Shown here: positions 1 through 6,155 of the stretch, in pieces | Layout: every line of letters starts with the position of its first letter | Numbering within the stretch: position 1 is the stretch's first letter | Origin: Ruminococcaceae bacterium BL-6 | GTDB lineage: Bacteria; Bacillota; Clostridia; Oscillospirales; Acutalibacteraceae | Assembly (NCBI GenBank): GCA_902810075.1 | Contig: LR778135.1 | Location: 186,001 to 250,000, forward strand | Direction of reading: 5' to 3' | DNA length: 64,000 nt | The notes under the pieces: model-generated | What the model was told of the DNA's origin: nothing | Seen by the model: the letters and a program-made list of their open reading frames with translations, nothing else | Databases searched by the model: none | Program-made: the position numbers and the translations under genes

Positions 1-2
1 GG

Positions 3-998
3 GTGGTCAGGCGGATTTTTCTGTGGTTCGCGTACGCGGGCATGAGCAAAAACGGAATCGCGAGAAAGCTGAACGAATGGGCGGTGCCGAACCCCACGGA
101 ATACAAGCGGCGGAGCGGCATGAAATACCATAATCCCAGCGGGGCCGGGAACGACGGGCTTTGGAGCGCCGGCACCGTCGCGCGGATCCTGAGCAATCCG
201 GTGTATCTCGGCCATATGGTGCAGGGGCGGCAGAAGGTCGTCAGCTACAAGGTGCACGACAAGGTTCCGGTGCCCCGGGAAAAATGGTTCGTCAAAGAGA
301 ACACCCATGCCCCGGTCGTCGATGCGGAAACCTTTGAGAGAGCGCAGAGCCTTCAGCAGCAAAATACCCGCACCGCGCCGAGCTGCGGCAGGCTGTCCCT
401 GTTTTCGGGATTCCTGCGCTGCTCCGGCTGCGGAAAGGCGCTTTCGAGGAAGCGCGCAAAAAATCATGTTTACTATTTCTGCCGGACGTATCGGGAAAAA
501 TCCAGAACCAGATGCACCAGGCATTCCATCCGGGAAGAGGATCTTCGGGCCGCCGTCCTGCTTGCAATTCAAAAGCAGGAGGAGCTGGTGCGTCCGTTTC
601 CGGCGGACATCCGCACGCCCCGCCCTTCCGGCGGGTGGGATGGGGGCCGCCTGCTGGCGCTTCGCCGGCAGGCGTGGAAGCGTGTCGCCGCGCAGATCGA
701 CAGCCTTTATCCGGACTGGAAAAACGGGGACCTGACAAGGCAGGAATATCACAGGCTGAAAGAAAAGCTGACGAAGCAGGCCGCCGCGCTGGAACAGGCG
801 GTGGCATCGCTGGAGCAGGAAACGGAGGAAGAAAAGGAAGAAAAAGACGCCGATTCGGGGGCCACGGCGGGCGCGCGGGGAATCCTCCGGCTGGAGCGGG
901 GAATCCTGGCGCAACTGGTGAGCCGGATCGACGTGGGGGAAGGCGGGATCACGATACGGTTTCGGTTCGCGGACCCTTATCAAAAAAGTCCGGGATGA
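3..998 (+). CDS. Large serine recombinase, C-terminal part (5' end outside window)
   Basis: The frame is open from the window edge, so the true start and the N-terminal catalytic domain lie upstream. What is visible is the recombinase DNA-binding domain ([19 protein letters not shown], then the [20 protein letters not shown] stretch), a zinc ribbon (CSGC, then YYFC and TRC) and a charged coiled-coil C-terminus. This is the architecture of TnpX/CisA-type large serine recombinases. It is clearly a paralogue of the recombinase at 1621-3222: SYKVH, FSGFLRC, CRTY and CTRH align throughout. It points rightward and stops about 60 bp from the collagen-like repeats, mirroring the other recombinase, whose 3' end abuts the opposite side of the same tract. 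Inference: it is the integrase of a second element that extends left of the window. Confidence 0.9.
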
Positions 999-1600
999 CA
1001 GGAAACAGCTGCCATCCCGGACTTTCCCGGGAGGAACGGTTGTGCAGAAAAGGCTGCCCCTGTTGCGCCCGTTGCGCCCGTAGGACCGGTGGGACCGGTC
1101 GGACCCTGAGCGCCCGTTGCGCCCGTAGGACCGGTGGGACCGGTCGGGCCCTGAGCACCCGTTGCGCCCGTAGGACCGGTGGGACCGACCGGGCCCTGGG
1201 CACCCGTTGCGCCCGTAGGACCGGTGGGACCGGTCGGACCCTGAGCGCCCGTTGCGCCCGTAGGACCGGTGGGACCGACTGGGCCCTGGGCACCCGTCGC
1301 GCCCGTAGGACCGGTGGGACCGACCGGGCCCTGAGCACCCGTCGCGCCCGTAGGACCGGTGGGCCCGACCGGGCCCTGGGCGCCCGTCGCGCCCGTAGGA
1401 CCGATGGGACCGACTGGGCCCTGGGCACCCGTTGCGCCCGTAGGACCGATGGGACCGACTGGGCCCTGAGCGCCCGTCGCGCCGGTTGCGCCGGTGGGAC
1501 CGACTGGGCCCTGAGGCCCGACCGGGCCTTGGGCGCCCGTTGCGCCGGCGGGGCCTTGCGGGCCGGTCGGCCCAGTCGCCCCGGTCGCCCCGGTTGCGCC
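980..1600 (-). CDS. Collagen-like Gly-X-Y tract, start-less 3' part of a split gene
   Basis: On the minus strand from 1600 the codons read an uninterrupted run of about 60 Gly-X-Y triplets, dominated by [16 protein letters not shown] short tail ([16 protein letters not shown]...) and a TGA at 980-982, inside the terminator T-run, follow. There is no start codon or ribosome site at the 5' end: the same frame simply continues into the antisense of the recombinase gene. The first collagen codons, GGC GCA AC, are the same 8 bp in the same codon register as the last collagen codons of the tract at 5655-6071. Deleting the DNA between the two copies would fuse the halves into one frame of about 345 residues. 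Alternative: a decayed collagen-gene remnant. Confidence 0.75.
982..1023 (-). terminator. Rho-independent terminator of the collagen-like tract
   Basis: A perfect 11-bp stem (AGTCCGGGATG with CATCCCGGACT, 15-nt loop) is followed on the minus strand by six T. It ends transcription coming from the collagen-like tract. It also lies just 3' of the rightward recombinase, but on the plus strand it has only a three-T tail. Confidence 0.75.
1080..1484. repeat. Nine tandem 45-bp collagen-coding repeats
   Basis: The word GTAGGACCG recurs every 45 bp from 1080 to 1440. Each unit encodes five Gly-X-Y triplets on the minus strand, with scattered third-position changes (GGTC/GACT/GACC). High identity between units makes the array prone to copy-number change and to misassembly. 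Confidence 0.9.
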
Positions 1601-1618
1601 GTTTTCAACAGGAATACC
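1570..1618. other. Candidate attL
   Basis: This is the collagen half-site (left) plus the core GTTGCGCC (1593-1600) plus the element arm through 1618. The arm mirrors 5623-5645, differing at four of 23 positions. The probable crossover dinucleotide is GT at 1593-1594, which is non-palindromic as required for directional integration. Confidence 0.65.
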
Positions 1619-1620
1619 GG

Positions 1621-3222
1621 TTATGGTGGAAAATGCAGAAGCGGGTCGGAGCAGCGCAGATGAATGCGAACCGCTCCGTTTTCTCCGACTGAAATCGTGT
1701 CCACCAGCTCCGTCAGCAGGCCGCGGGTCAGCGACGGGAGGCTGCCATCTTTTTGAAATGCCGCCCAGTCCGGGGAAACGCCGTTTCCTGCCCGCGGTTT
1801 TCCGGCTTCTTCCCGAATGACATCCAGGGACCGGCGAAGCTCCTTCTCCCTTTGCTCGTACCGCCGGCGCAGAGCCCGGTAATCGCCGCGAGAAAGATCG
1901 CCATCCCGCAGCGTTTCGTACAGGGACCGTTTGTAAAATAAGGTTCTTTCCAGCTCGCGCTCCCTGCTTTGCAGCATGGAAGAAAGGCGCGCTCCGCTTT
2001 CCCCCCCAAAGGGAAAAGCTTCCACTGCCGCGGCGACGGCCTCTTTTCGCACCGCCAGCGAAACAAGAAGACGCAGTGCGGCCAGCACGGCCCGCTCCAG
2101 CCGGTCTTCCCGGATGGTGTGCCTGGTGCAGGCTGCTTTGGATGCATCCTTATAGGTGCGGCAGTAATAATAAACGCGGTTTTTCATTTTGCTTCGGCTC
2201 ATGGATTTTCCGCAGTCCGCGCAGCGAAGAAATCCGGAAAACAGGGCGGGCTCCCTGCATGCCGGAGGGATGTGAACCGTCCGTTTCTGAAGCTCCTGCG
2301 CCCGTTGAAAAAGCTCCGCGGAAACCACCGGCTCATGGGAACCGGGCACAATGAACCACTCGCTTTCCGGCGTGCGGATCTGCGTATGCACCTTATAGCT
2401 TTTCACCCGGAAGCGCCCCTGAACCAGGTCGCCCAGATAGGTGCGGTCGGTCAGGATCCTGCGCACGGTCGCCGCGCACCACAGGCGGGTATCCGGCCGG
2501 GCGTTGGGGTTGCGGTAGGAAAGGCCCGAAGAGAGCTTGTAAGCGCTCGGGCATGGGATGCCGAGGGCGTTCAGCCTGCGGACGATCCCGTTATGGCTCG
2601 CTCCCCGCACGAACCAGCCGTAAATGTCGCGCACCACCCGGGCGGCTTCTTCATCGATCAGCAGGCGGTGGCGGTCCGCGGGGTCCTTCCGGTACCCGTA
2701 GGGGGCGAACGCGCCGATGAACTCCCCCCGCCTCCGCTTGGAATCCAAGACGCCGCGGATCTTCAGGGAGGTCTGGCGGCAGAAATCGTCATTGATGACA
2801 TTCTGAAGCGGAACCAGAATGCTGTTCATCCGGCCGGGGTCCCGGTAGCTGTCGAGCGCGGGTGCTTCCAGCGAGATGAACCGGACATCCAGCGAAAGGA
2901 AAAGCTGCTCCAGATAAAAGCCCGCCTCCCAGTAATTGCGGGAAAGACGGGAAAGATCTTTTACGATCACGCAGTTGACCTTCCGGCTTTTCACATCCTT
3001 CAGCATACTCAGAAAGCCGGCGCGCTCGGAGTCGGTGCCGGTGTAGCCGTCATCCGCGTAGATCCCGGCTATCTCAAATTCGCCGCCGCGGCTCCCGGCA
3101 TATTCCAACAGAAGGTCGCGCTGATTTTTCACGCTGTAGCTTTCGTCGTGCCCGTCTTCCCTGGAAAGGCGGATATAGAGAGCGGCCCTCCATCCGGGGC
3201 GGTTTTGTGCGGATTCGTTCAT
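1621..3222 (-). CDS. Large serine recombinase (integrase of the split-gene element)
   Basis: This 533-residue protein has the full architecture. The N-terminal resolvase domain holds the probable catalytic Ser20 in YIRLSRED and the DLSRLSRN motif near residue 95. Next come the recombinase DNA-binding domain (from about 165), a zinc ribbon ([15 protein letters not shown]; about 345-385) and a coiled-coil C-terminus. The family (TnpX, CisA/SpoIVCA, phiC31-type) makes 2-bp staggered cuts through a phosphoserine link and integrates or excises DNA between attP and attB. The start ATG follows AAAGGGGGATACGCC. The TAA stop at 1621-1623 is almost inside the left attP arm. No convincing sigma-A promoter was found upstream. 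An excision factor, if needed, was not recognised. Confidence 0.95.
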
Positions 3223-3435
3223 GGCGTATCCCCCTTTTTCTGCCCTGCCGCGGGCAGATATGATCTTCTCTTGGGTTTCTCTACTATATATGTATCGAAA
3301 CGAATATCAGAACGGGGACGACGTATTTACGGCATTTTGAAAGAAACGGCGGAACGATTTTGCCTTCTCCGCCGCCGCGGGGGGAAGGGAGCAAGGCACA
3401 GTTTTCGAATGGATTTGCGGGAAGGCGGAAGGGCA

Positions 3436-3474
3436 GAAAAACAGGGCGGAGCCTCAAAGAAGGCCTCGCCCTGT
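3436..3474 (-). terminator. Terminator downstream of gltS
   Basis: A 14-bp stem with one mismatch (ACAGGGCGGAGCCT at 3441-3454 with AGGCCTCGCCCTGT at 3461-3474) is followed on the minus strand by TTTTTCTG. It separates gltS from the recombinase gene. The 3223-3435 stretch in between shows no gene, only the recombinase ribosome site and an AT-rich patch. Confidence 0.8.
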
Positions 3475-3516
3475 CTGTTTTCAGGAGATAATAAAGGTTC
3501 GTACAGCCGCGTTCTT

Positions 3517-4719
3517 TTACAGCGTTGCGACCCAGGGCGCGACGATGCTGCACAGAAGCGGGTTGACAATATCCAGTACGATCAGCGCGAACGGGGTGAA
3601 AACGATCCACGCAACGTTGGCGGGGCCGTATTCGGAAATAACTGCGCGCATGTTCGCCATGGCGTTGGGGCCGGAACCAAGGCCGATCCCGACATGGGCT
3701 GCGGTCATAACGGCTGCGTTGTAGTCTTTTCCGCAAAGGTTGAAGGTGACGACAGCGACCCACACGATCATCAGGATGATCTGGCAGACCAGGATGAGGG
3801 CGAACGGACCGGCGACGGAAGCCAGCTTCGTCACGTCGATCGTCATCATGATCATTGCGATGAACAGATCCAGGGTAATGGAGTTGATTGCGTCGACCTC
3901 GGCATCCCGAAGCTCATAGCCGACATGATCCAGAATATTGCGGATGATCACGCCGCCCAGCATGCAGCCGACGAAATAGGGAAATTCAATACCCGGAATC
4001 ATGCCGAATAGAACGGCAATGTAAGAGCCGATGCCTGCGGAAATAGTAACCACGGCGACGGTCCCCAGCAGGTTTTTCGCATCCAGAGGCACGGCTTCGT
4101 TGTCGGCTTTCTTACTGGCATCCACTTCGTTCTTGTTGCCGGAGAGGTTGTGCTTCTTGATCAGCCAGCGGGCTACCGGGCCGCCGACCAGGCTTGCAAA
4201 AATCATGCCGAAGGTGGCGCCCATCACGCTGACAACGGTCGCGTTTGCGGCGCCCAGCTTTTCATAAAGCGGTGCAACAGCGCCCGCGGTGCCCACGCCG
4301 CCCATCAGGGACAGCGAGCCGAGACCGATGCCCATCAGCGGATGCAGGCCCAAAGGCTTTGCCAGCAGAACGCCCAGGACATCCTGCGCCAGGATCGAAC
4401 CGATCGTGGTGATGGTGATGCCGAGCATCAGCTTTCCGCCGGAATTTTTGATCAGTCTGGCGGATGCGCCGAGGCCGATGCAGGTGAAAAACAGGTCCAT
4501 GAAGAATTCTTTCAGGGTCGCCACGTCAAGCTTGACGGCGATTACGTTTCCGTTTTTCAGCAAGGATAATACGATACTGACAAGCAGGCCCGCGACGACC
4601 ACTCCGGGAATACAGTAAACCTGAAGAAATTTAACGCGTTTGACAAGCCAGCGGCCAAACAGTACTACCAAAGCCGCAAGTGCACAACTCTGCATGACAT
4701 CAAAGGAAATAGTTGGCAT
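3517..4719 (-). CDS. gltS: Sodium/glutamate symporter GltS
   Basis: A 400-residue polytopic membrane protein of the GltS (ESS) family, importing glutamate with Na+. Evidence is the family length, about ten hydrophobic segments, and the two inverted Gly-rich half motifs GLGSLSLMGGVGTAGAVAPL and HVGIGLGSGPNAMANM. The start was set at 4719 because AAGGGGG sits eight bases upstream. An in-frame extension to 4752 lacks a ribosome site. It is transcribed from its own consensus promoter (5122-5150) through a leader of about 400 nt. It lies inside the candidate integrase element, so it may be cargo, or an ancestral neighbour trapped by rearrangement. Confidence 0.93.
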   Translation of the reverse strand: MPTISFDVMQSCALAALVVLFGRWLVKRVKFLQVYCIPGVVVAGLLVSIVLSLLKNGNVIAVKLDVATLKEFFMDLFFTCIGLGASARLIKNSGGKLMLGITITTIGSILAQDVLGVLLAKPLGLHPLMGIGLGSLSLMGGVGTAGAVAPLYEKLGAANATVVSVMGATFGMIFASLVGGPVARWLIKKHNLSGNKNEVDASKKADNEAVPLDAKNLLGTVAVVTISAGIGSYIAVLFGMIPGIEFPYFVGCMLGGVIIRNILDHVGYELRDAEVDAINSITLDLFIAMIMMTIDVTKLASVAGPFALILVCQIILMIVWVAVVTFNLCGKDYNAAVMTAAHVGIGLGSGPNAMANMRAVISEYGPANVAWIVFTPFALIVLDIVNPLLCSIVAPWVATL

Positions 4720-5115
4720 ATAATGTTCCCCCTTATACAAGATAAAACTCAAATAAAAATTCTGTTCCCGGCAAAGAATAATCGCGCAGGTCTTCGCGGC
4801 GTTGCGAAACCGTCCCTCCTTCTCCCTCCCTTGCAGTACAGTTTATAAAACAAAAAACCGGGGCGAAGAACCGGCCGCCAGATGATCAAAATCTGCCGGA
4901 ACAAACATAAAAAACAAAATGCCCGGCCTTCGCTTCCCTGTTCCGGCGCGGAACCTTTTGTTTTTTTCAGAATAAAACGCTTTGCCTGCTTTTCGCCGTT
5001 CAGCTGTTCAGCAGGCCTGTCCACCCGGCGCCTGAACGGCGGGGAGGAAATGAGAGCTTTCGTTGCGGCCCTAAAATCAGGGCTAAATGTTAAGTGCTTT
5101 TCTCGCTTGAATTTC
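4720..5115 (-). promoter_or_regulatory. Long structured gltS leader with attenuator-like hairpin
   Basis: About 390 nt separate the promoter from the gltS start and hold no convincing gene. On the minus strand I see a perfect 10-bp stem (CGCCGTTCAG with CTGAACGGCG, around 4992-5040), a GTTCCG/CGGAAC hairpin (around 4943-4957), and a short CCGG stem followed by TTTTTTGTTTT (around 4848-4872) that could act as an attenuator. No known riboswitch or T-box consensus was recognised. Confidence 0.45.
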
Positions 5116-5121
5116 AGCCTT

Positions 5122-5150
5122 ATCATAGCATCGTTGTTTCCCACTGTCAA
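5122..5150 (-). promoter_or_regulatory. Sigma-A promoter of gltS
   Basis: The minus strand reads TTGACA (5150-5145), a 17-bp spacer and TATGAT (5127-5122). This is a near-perfect vegetative promoter with its start near 5115. Confidence 0.8.
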
Positions 5151-5622
5151 TAACTTTTTTGCATATATTAACTAATGAGTTTCAAAAACATTCAAATTCC
5201 TCTGTGCATCAATACAATTATTTTAATTAAATAGAATGAAATTTGAATAATGTGTTAAAACTGGTGAAATAGGGCTGGCGAATAGCAACAAAATTTCCGC
5301 TATGATGTTGTGAAAGAAAATATTTTACATAGAAATTGATGTTTCTATTTTTTTAACACGAAATATAAACACTTTTGAAAAAATTTGTGAAATCCTTAAA
5401 ATCCTGAGAAATTTGAGGAATTTTGTGCTTTTCGGAAAGGCACGAGGGTGGAAAGAAATTTCCTCCCGCTTTATCCCGAATGGAAGCGGATAGGACGGGC
5501 GGAAAAAATAAAAAACGATTTTCGGGCTCTGCTCCTGCTTGTACTTTTGAGATCGCCGTTTCCATCCGCCTATCAGGGGATGGCTGTATTTTTCTGTAAG
5601 AAGCGATGATTTCCGTGCTTTC
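5151..5622. other. AT-rich right flank of the element, no gene seen
   Basis: This stretch is markedly more AT-rich than its surroundings. Its only long minus-strand frame is the read-through of the collagen-like N-terminal half, giving a basic, low-complexity tail with no recognisable domain. I see no independent gene here. Confidence 0.5.
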
Positions 5623-6071
5623 GGGATTCCTGTCGGGAACGGCGCTGTTGCGCCTGCCGGGCCCGCAGGTCCGGTAGGACCCTGGACGCCGGCAGGGCCC
5701 TGAGAACCGGCAGGACCCGTGTTACCCGTTGGGCCGGCCGGCCCAACGGGCCCCTGAATTCCCTGGGGCCCCTGCGGGCCCTGGACGCCCTGAGGCCCCT
5801 GCGGGCCCAGCGGACCTTGCGGGCCCTGTGCGCCTTGGGGGCCGGCAGGCCCCGTCGGTCCTGTCGGTCCGGCAGGGCCGGGAGGGCAGGAAGGCGGGCA
5901 TGGCGGGTAAGGCGGGTAAGGAGGCGGGCAAGGCGGGTAGGGTGACGGCGCCGGCGGGCACTGCCAGAAGGCGTTGCCGAGTCCGGAATTGTCAGAGCAG
6001 CTGCGGTAAATTTTCGTATCCGGGGTAAAAGGTTGGCCACCACAGGAGGATGGCCATCTGCCATATGACAT
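5325..6071 (-). CDS. Collagen-like protein, N-terminal part with foreign C-terminus
   Basis: The start is ATG at 6071, eight bases after AGGAG; an upstream in-frame TTG at 6077 is less likely. Domains in order: a Cys/Trp/Pro-rich N-terminus ([12 protein letters not shown]..., then repeated PPYPPCPP, about residues 1-61), about 26 Gly-X-Y triplets (about 62-139), then an abrupt switch to a basic, low-complexity tail of about 109 residues with no domain. The switch falls exactly at the 8-bp core of the candidate attR, so the tail is best read as translation of the inserted element. Collagen-like proteins with short N-termini are typical exosporium or spore-surface filaments in Firmicutes. The sigma-K-like promoter upstream supports that role. 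Confidence 0.8.
5623..5675. other. Candidate attR
   Basis: This is the element arm 5623-5645, the core copy GTTGCGCC (5647-5654) and the collagen half-site to the right. It is the partner of the candidate attL at 1570-1618. The collagen codon register (GGC GCA AC on the minus strand) is identical at both cores. Confidence 0.65.
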
Positions 6072-6128: not shown

Positions 6129-6155
6129 TATAGTATGACGCTCTTCGAAATAAGT
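6129..6155 (-). promoter_or_regulatory. Sigma-K-like promoter of the collagen-like gene
   Basis: The minus strand carries CATACTATA (6137-6129), a full match to the CATAnnnTA -10 of sigma-K (and close to sigma-E), with AC at -35 (6155-6154) after 16 bp. It lies about 60 bp before the start codon. It implies late mother-cell expression during sporulation. Confidence 0.55.

Follow-up and report, generated by a model that had tools for sequence, protein, structure and literature searches.

Why is a collagen-like gene of Ruminococcaceae bacterium BL-6 broken into three pieces, and could these pieces still be made to serve as one gene? In spore formers, gene-intervening elements have been described for a handful of target genes. 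The locus considered here lies at the left end of a 64,000-nucleotide stretch of contig LR778135.1 (positions 186,001 to 250,000; hereafter the window, G000:C1:186001-250000), and the source genome, G000, is one contig of 3.44 Mb. A preliminary description of the window had proposed a collagen-like gene interrupted in frame by a serine-integrase element, and we find this interruption as described: the integrase gene rec1 adjoins a collagen half, gltS lies inside the element, and one codon register holds on both sides. That description stopped at a single element. It missed a second element and the true 3' end of the gene with its BclA_C-like domain, because these lie outside the window, and it also missed the habit of the wider integrase family. 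With a probability of roughly 0.72, we propose that a BclA-type gene is split by two independent, removable integrase elements, each seated at an attB site in the collagen repeats, with excision likely occurring in the mother cell. The argument rests mainly on the att sites and the codon register. DNA to the left of the window was taken from L009 (174001-193900), where the window coordinate equals the L009 coordinate minus 12000. The principal parts are as follows.

5649..6071, minus strand: N-part of the collagen gene, with its ATG at 6071, a Cys/Pro-rich head, then Gly-X-Y up to element 1's Gly-Ala-Thr codon (translation, PF01391)
1595..5648, minus strand: element 1, 4054 bp, between the N-part and the middle part; crossover AC at 5648-5647 and 1594-1593
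1621..3222, minus strand: rec1, large serine integrase of 533 aa (PF00239, PF07508, PF13408), adjoining one collagen half
1064..1594, minus strand: middle part of the collagen gene, nothing but Gly-X-Y repeats (translation, PF01391)
L009 11019-13063: element 2, 2045 bp, between the middle part and the C-part; it crosses the window's left edge, and its right part is window 1..1063
about L009 11400-12998, plus strand: rec2, whose 3' part is window 1..998
985..1025, plus strand: hairpin behind rec2 (folding, z -4.56; absent from the terminator scan)
L009 11018 to 10494, left of the window, minus strand: C-part of the collagen gene, the 3' end, with a BclA_C-like domain
L009 10428-10493: hairpin past the true collagen stop (folding; absent from the terminator scan)

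Read from the sequence, this is one collagen-like gene in three pieces, with two serine-integrase elements in between and all three parts on the minus strand in a single codon register. Removing both elements in silico yields a 492-residue frame with 96 unbroken Gly-X-Y triplets across both predicted crossovers, and the continuity of these triplets after joining is the frame restoration expected of sporulation gene-intervening elements. The restored product had been put at about 345 residues; it comes to 492 because the second element must also leave. The N-part frame without excision runs to 248 residues and has a non-collagen tail. The C-part scores 33.5 bits (E 4.4e-8) against the BclA_C model PF18573, under its curated cut-off of 38 bits, and the split protein is probably of the BclA type and of the spore surface. 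A terminator had also been placed at the outer end of a collagen half; this is probably the hairpin after rec2 (~985-1025), inside element 2.

The ends of both elements carry inverted arms, placed as follows.

5622..5646, plus strand: element 1 attP half-arm on the N-part side, a 20/25 inverted match to 1595-1619
1595..1619, minus strand: element 1 attP half-arm on the middle-part side, beside the rec1 stop; partner of 5622..5646
1037..1061, plus strand: element 2 attP half-arm, matching at 22/25 its partner at L009 11019-11043, left of the window

About a central dinucleotide AC, the top choice when all dinucleotides were allowed, the arms match at 20/25 positions in element 1 and 22/25 in element 2, and none of 150 shuffles equalled either. 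Both elements therefore have what is expected of attP: about 50 bp, dyad symmetry, and a non-palindromic dinucleotide shared with attB. The attP of element 1 can be rebuilt, as had been suggested, and the crossover assignment gives a circle of the same length, 4054 bp. An 8-bp direct repeat, GTTGCGCC, had been cited at the junctions as well. It is present but carries little weight alone, with 12 copies in the window on the plus strand (10 of them within 1000-1620) and 3 on the minus strand. For element 2, junctions at GCC or GC were considered and rejected, since the dyad is best with AC and the collagen register is then preserved. Because AC reads on the collagen strand at both ends, attL and attR are directly oriented and recombination between them would delete the element rather than invert it; an inversion switch was rejected on this ground.

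We also asked how often these arms occur in the genome, allowing up to 3 mismatches and placing N where the two arms differ. Without mismatches, the element 1 pattern is confined to its own two junctions, and a single further site carries it with 3 mismatches; the element 2 pattern is found at its own two junctions and nowhere else. The arms are thus not common genomic repeats. An assembly artefact is unlikely, since the genome is a single contig, the arms are restricted to the junctions, and the same architecture recurs in other genomes.

Both rec1 and rec2 carry the Resolvase, Recombinase, and Zn-ribbon domains of large serine integrases, all above the Pfam cut-offs. The two genes are convergent and their products 44% identical. 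Across 11 family members, Ser20, Arg18, Arg92, and Arg95 of rec1 do not vary, and we take these residues to have catalytic roles. The nearest solved relatives of rec1 in the PDB are TnpX and the SPbeta integrase YokA.

From this arrangement we infer the following course of events. Each integrase would recombine the ~50-bp dyad attP of its element with a collagen-repeat attB that encodes Gly-X-Thr-Gly, the dinucleotide AC lying inside the Thr codon. The same integrase, probably together with a directionality factor, would cut the element out as a circle and leave the gene rejoined with its Gly-X-Y register exactly preserved. With both elements out, the gene would encode a 492-residue protein consisting of the N-terminal head, the 96 triplets, and the BclA_C-like domain. 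Because the promoter of the collagen gene is SigK-like, excision would likely take place in the sporulating mother cell. The promoter site is:

6129..6155, minus strand: SigK-like promoter AC-N16-CATACTATA, upstream of the N-part

The motif AC-N16-CATA[CT]TATA, which fits the SigK consensus, stands 64-66 bp before the start codon in 5/5 genes at this locus from four species. It also precedes two of nine other collagen genes checked in four genomes (the G003 MAYF gene and the G000 546k gene). A sigK gene scores above the model cut-off in all four species compared.

Is the gene whole in any relative? Names of flanking genes (ger, lepA, glycosyltransferase, Rrf2, sensor kinase, TAXI, MFS, MarR) are by-eye readings of translations, with no family search behind them. 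In G002, the syntenic neighborhood contains lepA, ger genes, collagen genes, a glycosyltransferase gene, and an Rrf2-type gene, and between the ger genes and the glycosyltransferase gene a collagen frame runs without interruption for 759 codons, counted from stop to stop. The contiguous gene that the preliminary description had proposed to look for in relatives is therefore present at the syntenic locus. In G003, the collagen gene between ger and glycosyltransferase is split by a ~12-kb element with a different integrase. In G001, contig C10 ends within a collagen N-part after the ger genes, and contig C16 reads collagen repeats, att junction, an element of ~10.7 kb with its integrase, C-part, and glycosyltransferase gene; we infer that C10 and C16 join into one split collagen locus. 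The collagen gene at this position thus seems to have been hit by different elements in three of the four species compared. The C-parts of G001 and G003, which lie beside these different elements, have dN/dS 0.35 over 167 codons, although these insertions may be young.

The choice of insertion site appears to follow one rule. In 17/17 elements with both ends placed, the crossover fits AC in the Thr codon of a Gly-X-Thr followed by Gly, and the Gly-X-Y phase continues across the junction, with three or more triplets ahead of it and two or more behind. AC is required by construction in this table, from which L116 was left out (its far end is near a contig edge and its dyad is not above shuffles); L167 was not entered among the placed elements, and the anchors of G001:C16 and L160 were picked by eye where the automatic search had chosen in-repeat pairs. 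A free search over all dinucleotides ranked AC first in 16/18 pairs; of the other two, L122 gave a tie and L116 failed. Automatic calling settled the register in 12 of the 18 pairs, three others being scored as different (L118, L122, L155) and three undecided. Weak arms were seen in L160 (13/25) and L128 (15/25). When the arm was searched blindly against all upstream DNA, its best partner fell at the far collagen junction in L122, L146, L155, and L159 (19-20/24; control 15-18 by locus) and near that junction in L118, at 17 with a control of 17; in the remaining loci the best match lay away from the far collagen junction (up to 20/24, in L166 and L162). In L145, the stretch 43-525 bp past the recombinase has a GPTG junction and the usual arm in a frame that does not look like collagen, a possible off-target attB; its recombinase belongs to a mostly collagen clade.

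A shared rule of this kind would also suit a different use. Each collagen gene offers many equivalent attB sites, so it is conceivable that spore-surface proteins vary in repeat number and exchange C-terminal domains through repeated excision and reintegration, or through recombination between collagen genes. The common codon phase and dinucleotide of the placed crossovers fit such repeat-register shuffling, as do the presence of two elements in one gene here, the collagen segment bracketed by two convergent recombinases in UBA8129, and the differing C-terminal domains that this locus bears across the genus. We nonetheless regard it as unlikely: none of the alleles seen demonstrates that these enzymes have swapped a domain or altered the repeat number, and the orientation of attL and attR points to deletion, not inversion. 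The UBA8129 case (L206 9500-9900, on the contig of L129) has a twin geometry like that of the window, with two convergent family recombinases around a middle segment of collagen; that contig does not carry the outer halves.

How general is the association with collagen? Within the genus, 10 of 11 integrases with at least 44% identity adjoin collagen pieces, the exception being G001:C3 (L034). A scan of GTDB species genomes gave a best 79 loci, at least four of them in genomes already examined. Collagen sequence lies within 500 bp of the recombinase 3' end in 36 of these, and 32 have at least six Gly-X-Y triplets there, all at 27-271 bp. L105, L120, L146, and L166 were put in the collagen class by eye on shorter tracts or a BclA_C-like part, and two loci with less than 500 bp after the recombinase were counted as misses. 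Within 500 bp of the recombinase 5' end, collagen was found at none of 74 loci in the scan, and the background was 21 of 1592 bins. A tree built by a quick method from 91 rows, 44 of them collagen, has several long branches, rec1 and rec2 included. On it, the collagen label can be explained by 9 changes, where shuffled labels require 30.6 on average, and a clade of 32 rows lacks any collagen locus. In a wider search covering 300 family genomes, 125 had a match at 1e-90. Judged from these sequences, part of the integrase family has repeatedly targeted collagen repeats.

We tentatively suggest, at odds short of even, that the family evolved to read collagen-repeat DNA (Gly-X-Thr-Gly). Collagen-like surface genes of spore formers may thereby have become an array for reversible docking, and the host may keep split genes since excision in the mother cell gates, and can rearrange, the collagen of the spore surface. 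A doubtful but serious competitor holds that the elements are selfish and use collagen repeats as a safe harbour. The repeats would be abundant, repetitive, and dispensable attB sites, the host would tolerate losing one collagen gene out of several, and excision would come by chance or at transfer. Several features agree with this. The cargo varies, comprising gltS (by Pfam) and, by eye, MFS and MarR types, sensor/regulator genes, and transport genes. A near-identical integrase (95% over 557 codons) occupies different collagen genes in different species (L030, L032), G000 has at least two further collagen genes besides the split one, the rec genes inspected showed no sporulation-type promoter ahead of them, and a sister clade is inserted elsewhere.

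What argues against a safe harbour is the fate of the severed parts. The SigK-like promoter is kept before the split N-part in three species, and a split common to two species (L035/L036) allows selection to be assessed. There the recombinase has dS 0.50 and the adjoining MATE-type flank gene dS 0.55; because these agree, we read the split as inherited vertically. The severed C-part has dN/dS 0.44 over 139 codons, with no gap or stop. In a neutral simulation, a dN/dS that low arose in 4 of 400 runs, and a stop was gained in 337 of 400. The C-part is under purifying selection although apparently severed before the two species diverged, which is the strongest indication that halves cut off in this way remain of use.

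The same locus pair bears on the proposal that these are relics, dead insertions in a pseudogene whose frame survives only through youth. There is no direct evidence of activity, and one G002 collagen gene contains in-frame stops, which would suit a relic. Against this stand the L035/L036 split without stop or gap, the full set of three domains in both recombinases, the invariant Ser20, Arg18, Arg92, and Arg95 of rec1, and the intact arms, and we consider relics very unlikely.

Several observations weigh against the proposed excision of two elements from one BclA-type gene. Of the best 79 loci, 43 were not scored as collagen sites, 31 of these falling in one clade. In the wider search, 5 of 26 loci examined adjoin collagen within 200 bp, one with four triplets only (at least four of the 26 are on contigs already in the GTDB scan), so the collagen habit belongs to part of the integrase family only. 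Two of the 16 AC-first pairs in the free search fell inside repeats, and 13 of the 18 pairs scored above every one of 20 shuffles, a count that includes the in-repeat pair of G001:C16. The SigK-like motif was absent upstream of seven of the nine other collagen genes checked, and the DNA preceding rec1, rec2, gltS, the DUF6870 gene, and five other recombinases showed no CATANNN[TA][AT] site. Since no sporulation-type promoter was seen ahead of the recombinases inspected, control is left to a directionality factor, and element 1 has no convincing small gene for one. The dS of other genes between the L035/L036 species spans 0.29-0.68, and the evidence of selection comes from essentially one locus pair. 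Collagen gene I of G002 (L072 8485-9678) has two in-frame TGA within its repeats, so decay of collagen genes also happens. Finally, a search with the joined protein for an intact, near-identical allele found none among the 120 matches listed of 6765.

The remaining contents of the elements are these.

3520..4719, minus strand: gltS, sodium/glutamate symporter, cargo of element 1 (PF03616)
5122..5150, minus strand: sigma-70-type promoter-like site TTGACA-17-TATGAT, directed toward gltS (consensus scan 11/12; a sequence match only)
L033 12126-13316: extra gltS copy of G003, adjoining the same collagen locus
L009 11119-11397: DUF6870 gene of element 2, beside rec2

The gltS product scores 299.3 bits against TIGR00210, slightly below the cut-off of 310.75, and the sole close gltS ortholog of G000 sits within element 1. 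In other species, three of four gltS copies adjoin a sensor kinase and a TAXI-type binding protein, both read by eye, suggesting that gltS may be captured cargo and not a typical part of the element; the idea that it is a regular component of such elements was unsupported. The sensor kinase beside gltS in G003 had no match in G000 at 1e-30, in a search run without a positive control.

A small DUF6870-like gene lies upstream of many family recombinases, at collagen and non-collagen loci alike. By regular-expression counts over loci with at least 700 bp upstream, it occurs at 16/33 collagen loci, 12/28 loci of the non-collagen clade, and 6/11 others, and was rejected as a marker of collagen elements. 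Its protein is a candidate for the directionality factor. Within the non-collagen clade, the recombinase 3' ends of L112, L115, and L131 adjoin frames with a similar tail, ..ILGK.T.., which is probably an att arm read through; the L115 frame resembles that of an IS200-type transposase. L039, L040, and L041, which served as the outgroup, hold clusters of at least three serine recombinases whose 3' ends lack a collagen tract, and L039 has a collagen N-part upstream of its cluster.

These results suggest that part of an integrase family has repeatedly chosen a repeated coding motif, with one att rule that fits insertions in Clostridia and Paenibacillaceae. Under such a rule, full-length proteins are predicted to lie hidden where annotation would list fragments. 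The finding also makes testable whether DNA deletion in the mother cell finishes spore surfaces, and it provides integrases for which many natural landing sites exist in codon phase. In the open-licence PMC literature, covered mostly by titles and abstract openings, we found no description of serine-integrase elements in collagen-like genes; PMC3158075 concerns collagen-binding repeats, not integrase elements in collagen genes.

How, then, does this locus compare with known systems? The gin element of Bacillus cereus ATCC10987 is a 28.6-kb non-phage element in gerE with three recombinases and GirX, and its excision was shown in vivo and in vitro (PMC5595907). Like the elements here, it carries serine recombinase genes and has inverted-repeat att sites about a dinucleotide; it interrupts a mother-cell gene that excision rejoins, as is proposed for the present locus. 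The target of gin is a small regulator gene (PMC5595907), whereas the elements here, of 4.1 and 2.0 kb, each encode a single integrase and share one collagen-like gene, in which they sit at a repeated codon motif; their excision is predicted from the sites. In Bacillus subtilis, SprA-driven excision of the SPbeta prophage from spsM restores a spore-surface gene in the mother cell, with SprB as the timing factor (PMC4191935). That system also uses a serine recombinase, YokA (SprA), which is among the nearest solved relatives of rec1; it differs in being a prophage with SprB and in targeting a polysaccharide gene (PMC4191935). The yin element in Clostridium botulinum yabG, described there as unique, is excised as a circle under a proposed SigK-type control; its recombinase has the same three Pfam domains, and it differs in being prophage-like and in its target gene (PMC10747680). 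The skinCd element of Clostridioides difficile intervenes in sigK and has a recombination directionality factor (PMC5025042); its target is a sigma factor gene, whereas sigK here is an open frame without stops. Among more distant recombinases, TnpX (Tn4451) is a rec1 match in the PDB, and the NCBIfam models for XisF (fdxN element) and CcrA/B/C match rec1 weakly, far below their curated cut-offs. By analogy, the arrangement would work like gin, SPbeta-spsM, skin, and yin, and would differ from them in its target (a collagen repeat motif), its size, its double occupancy of one gene, and its spread.

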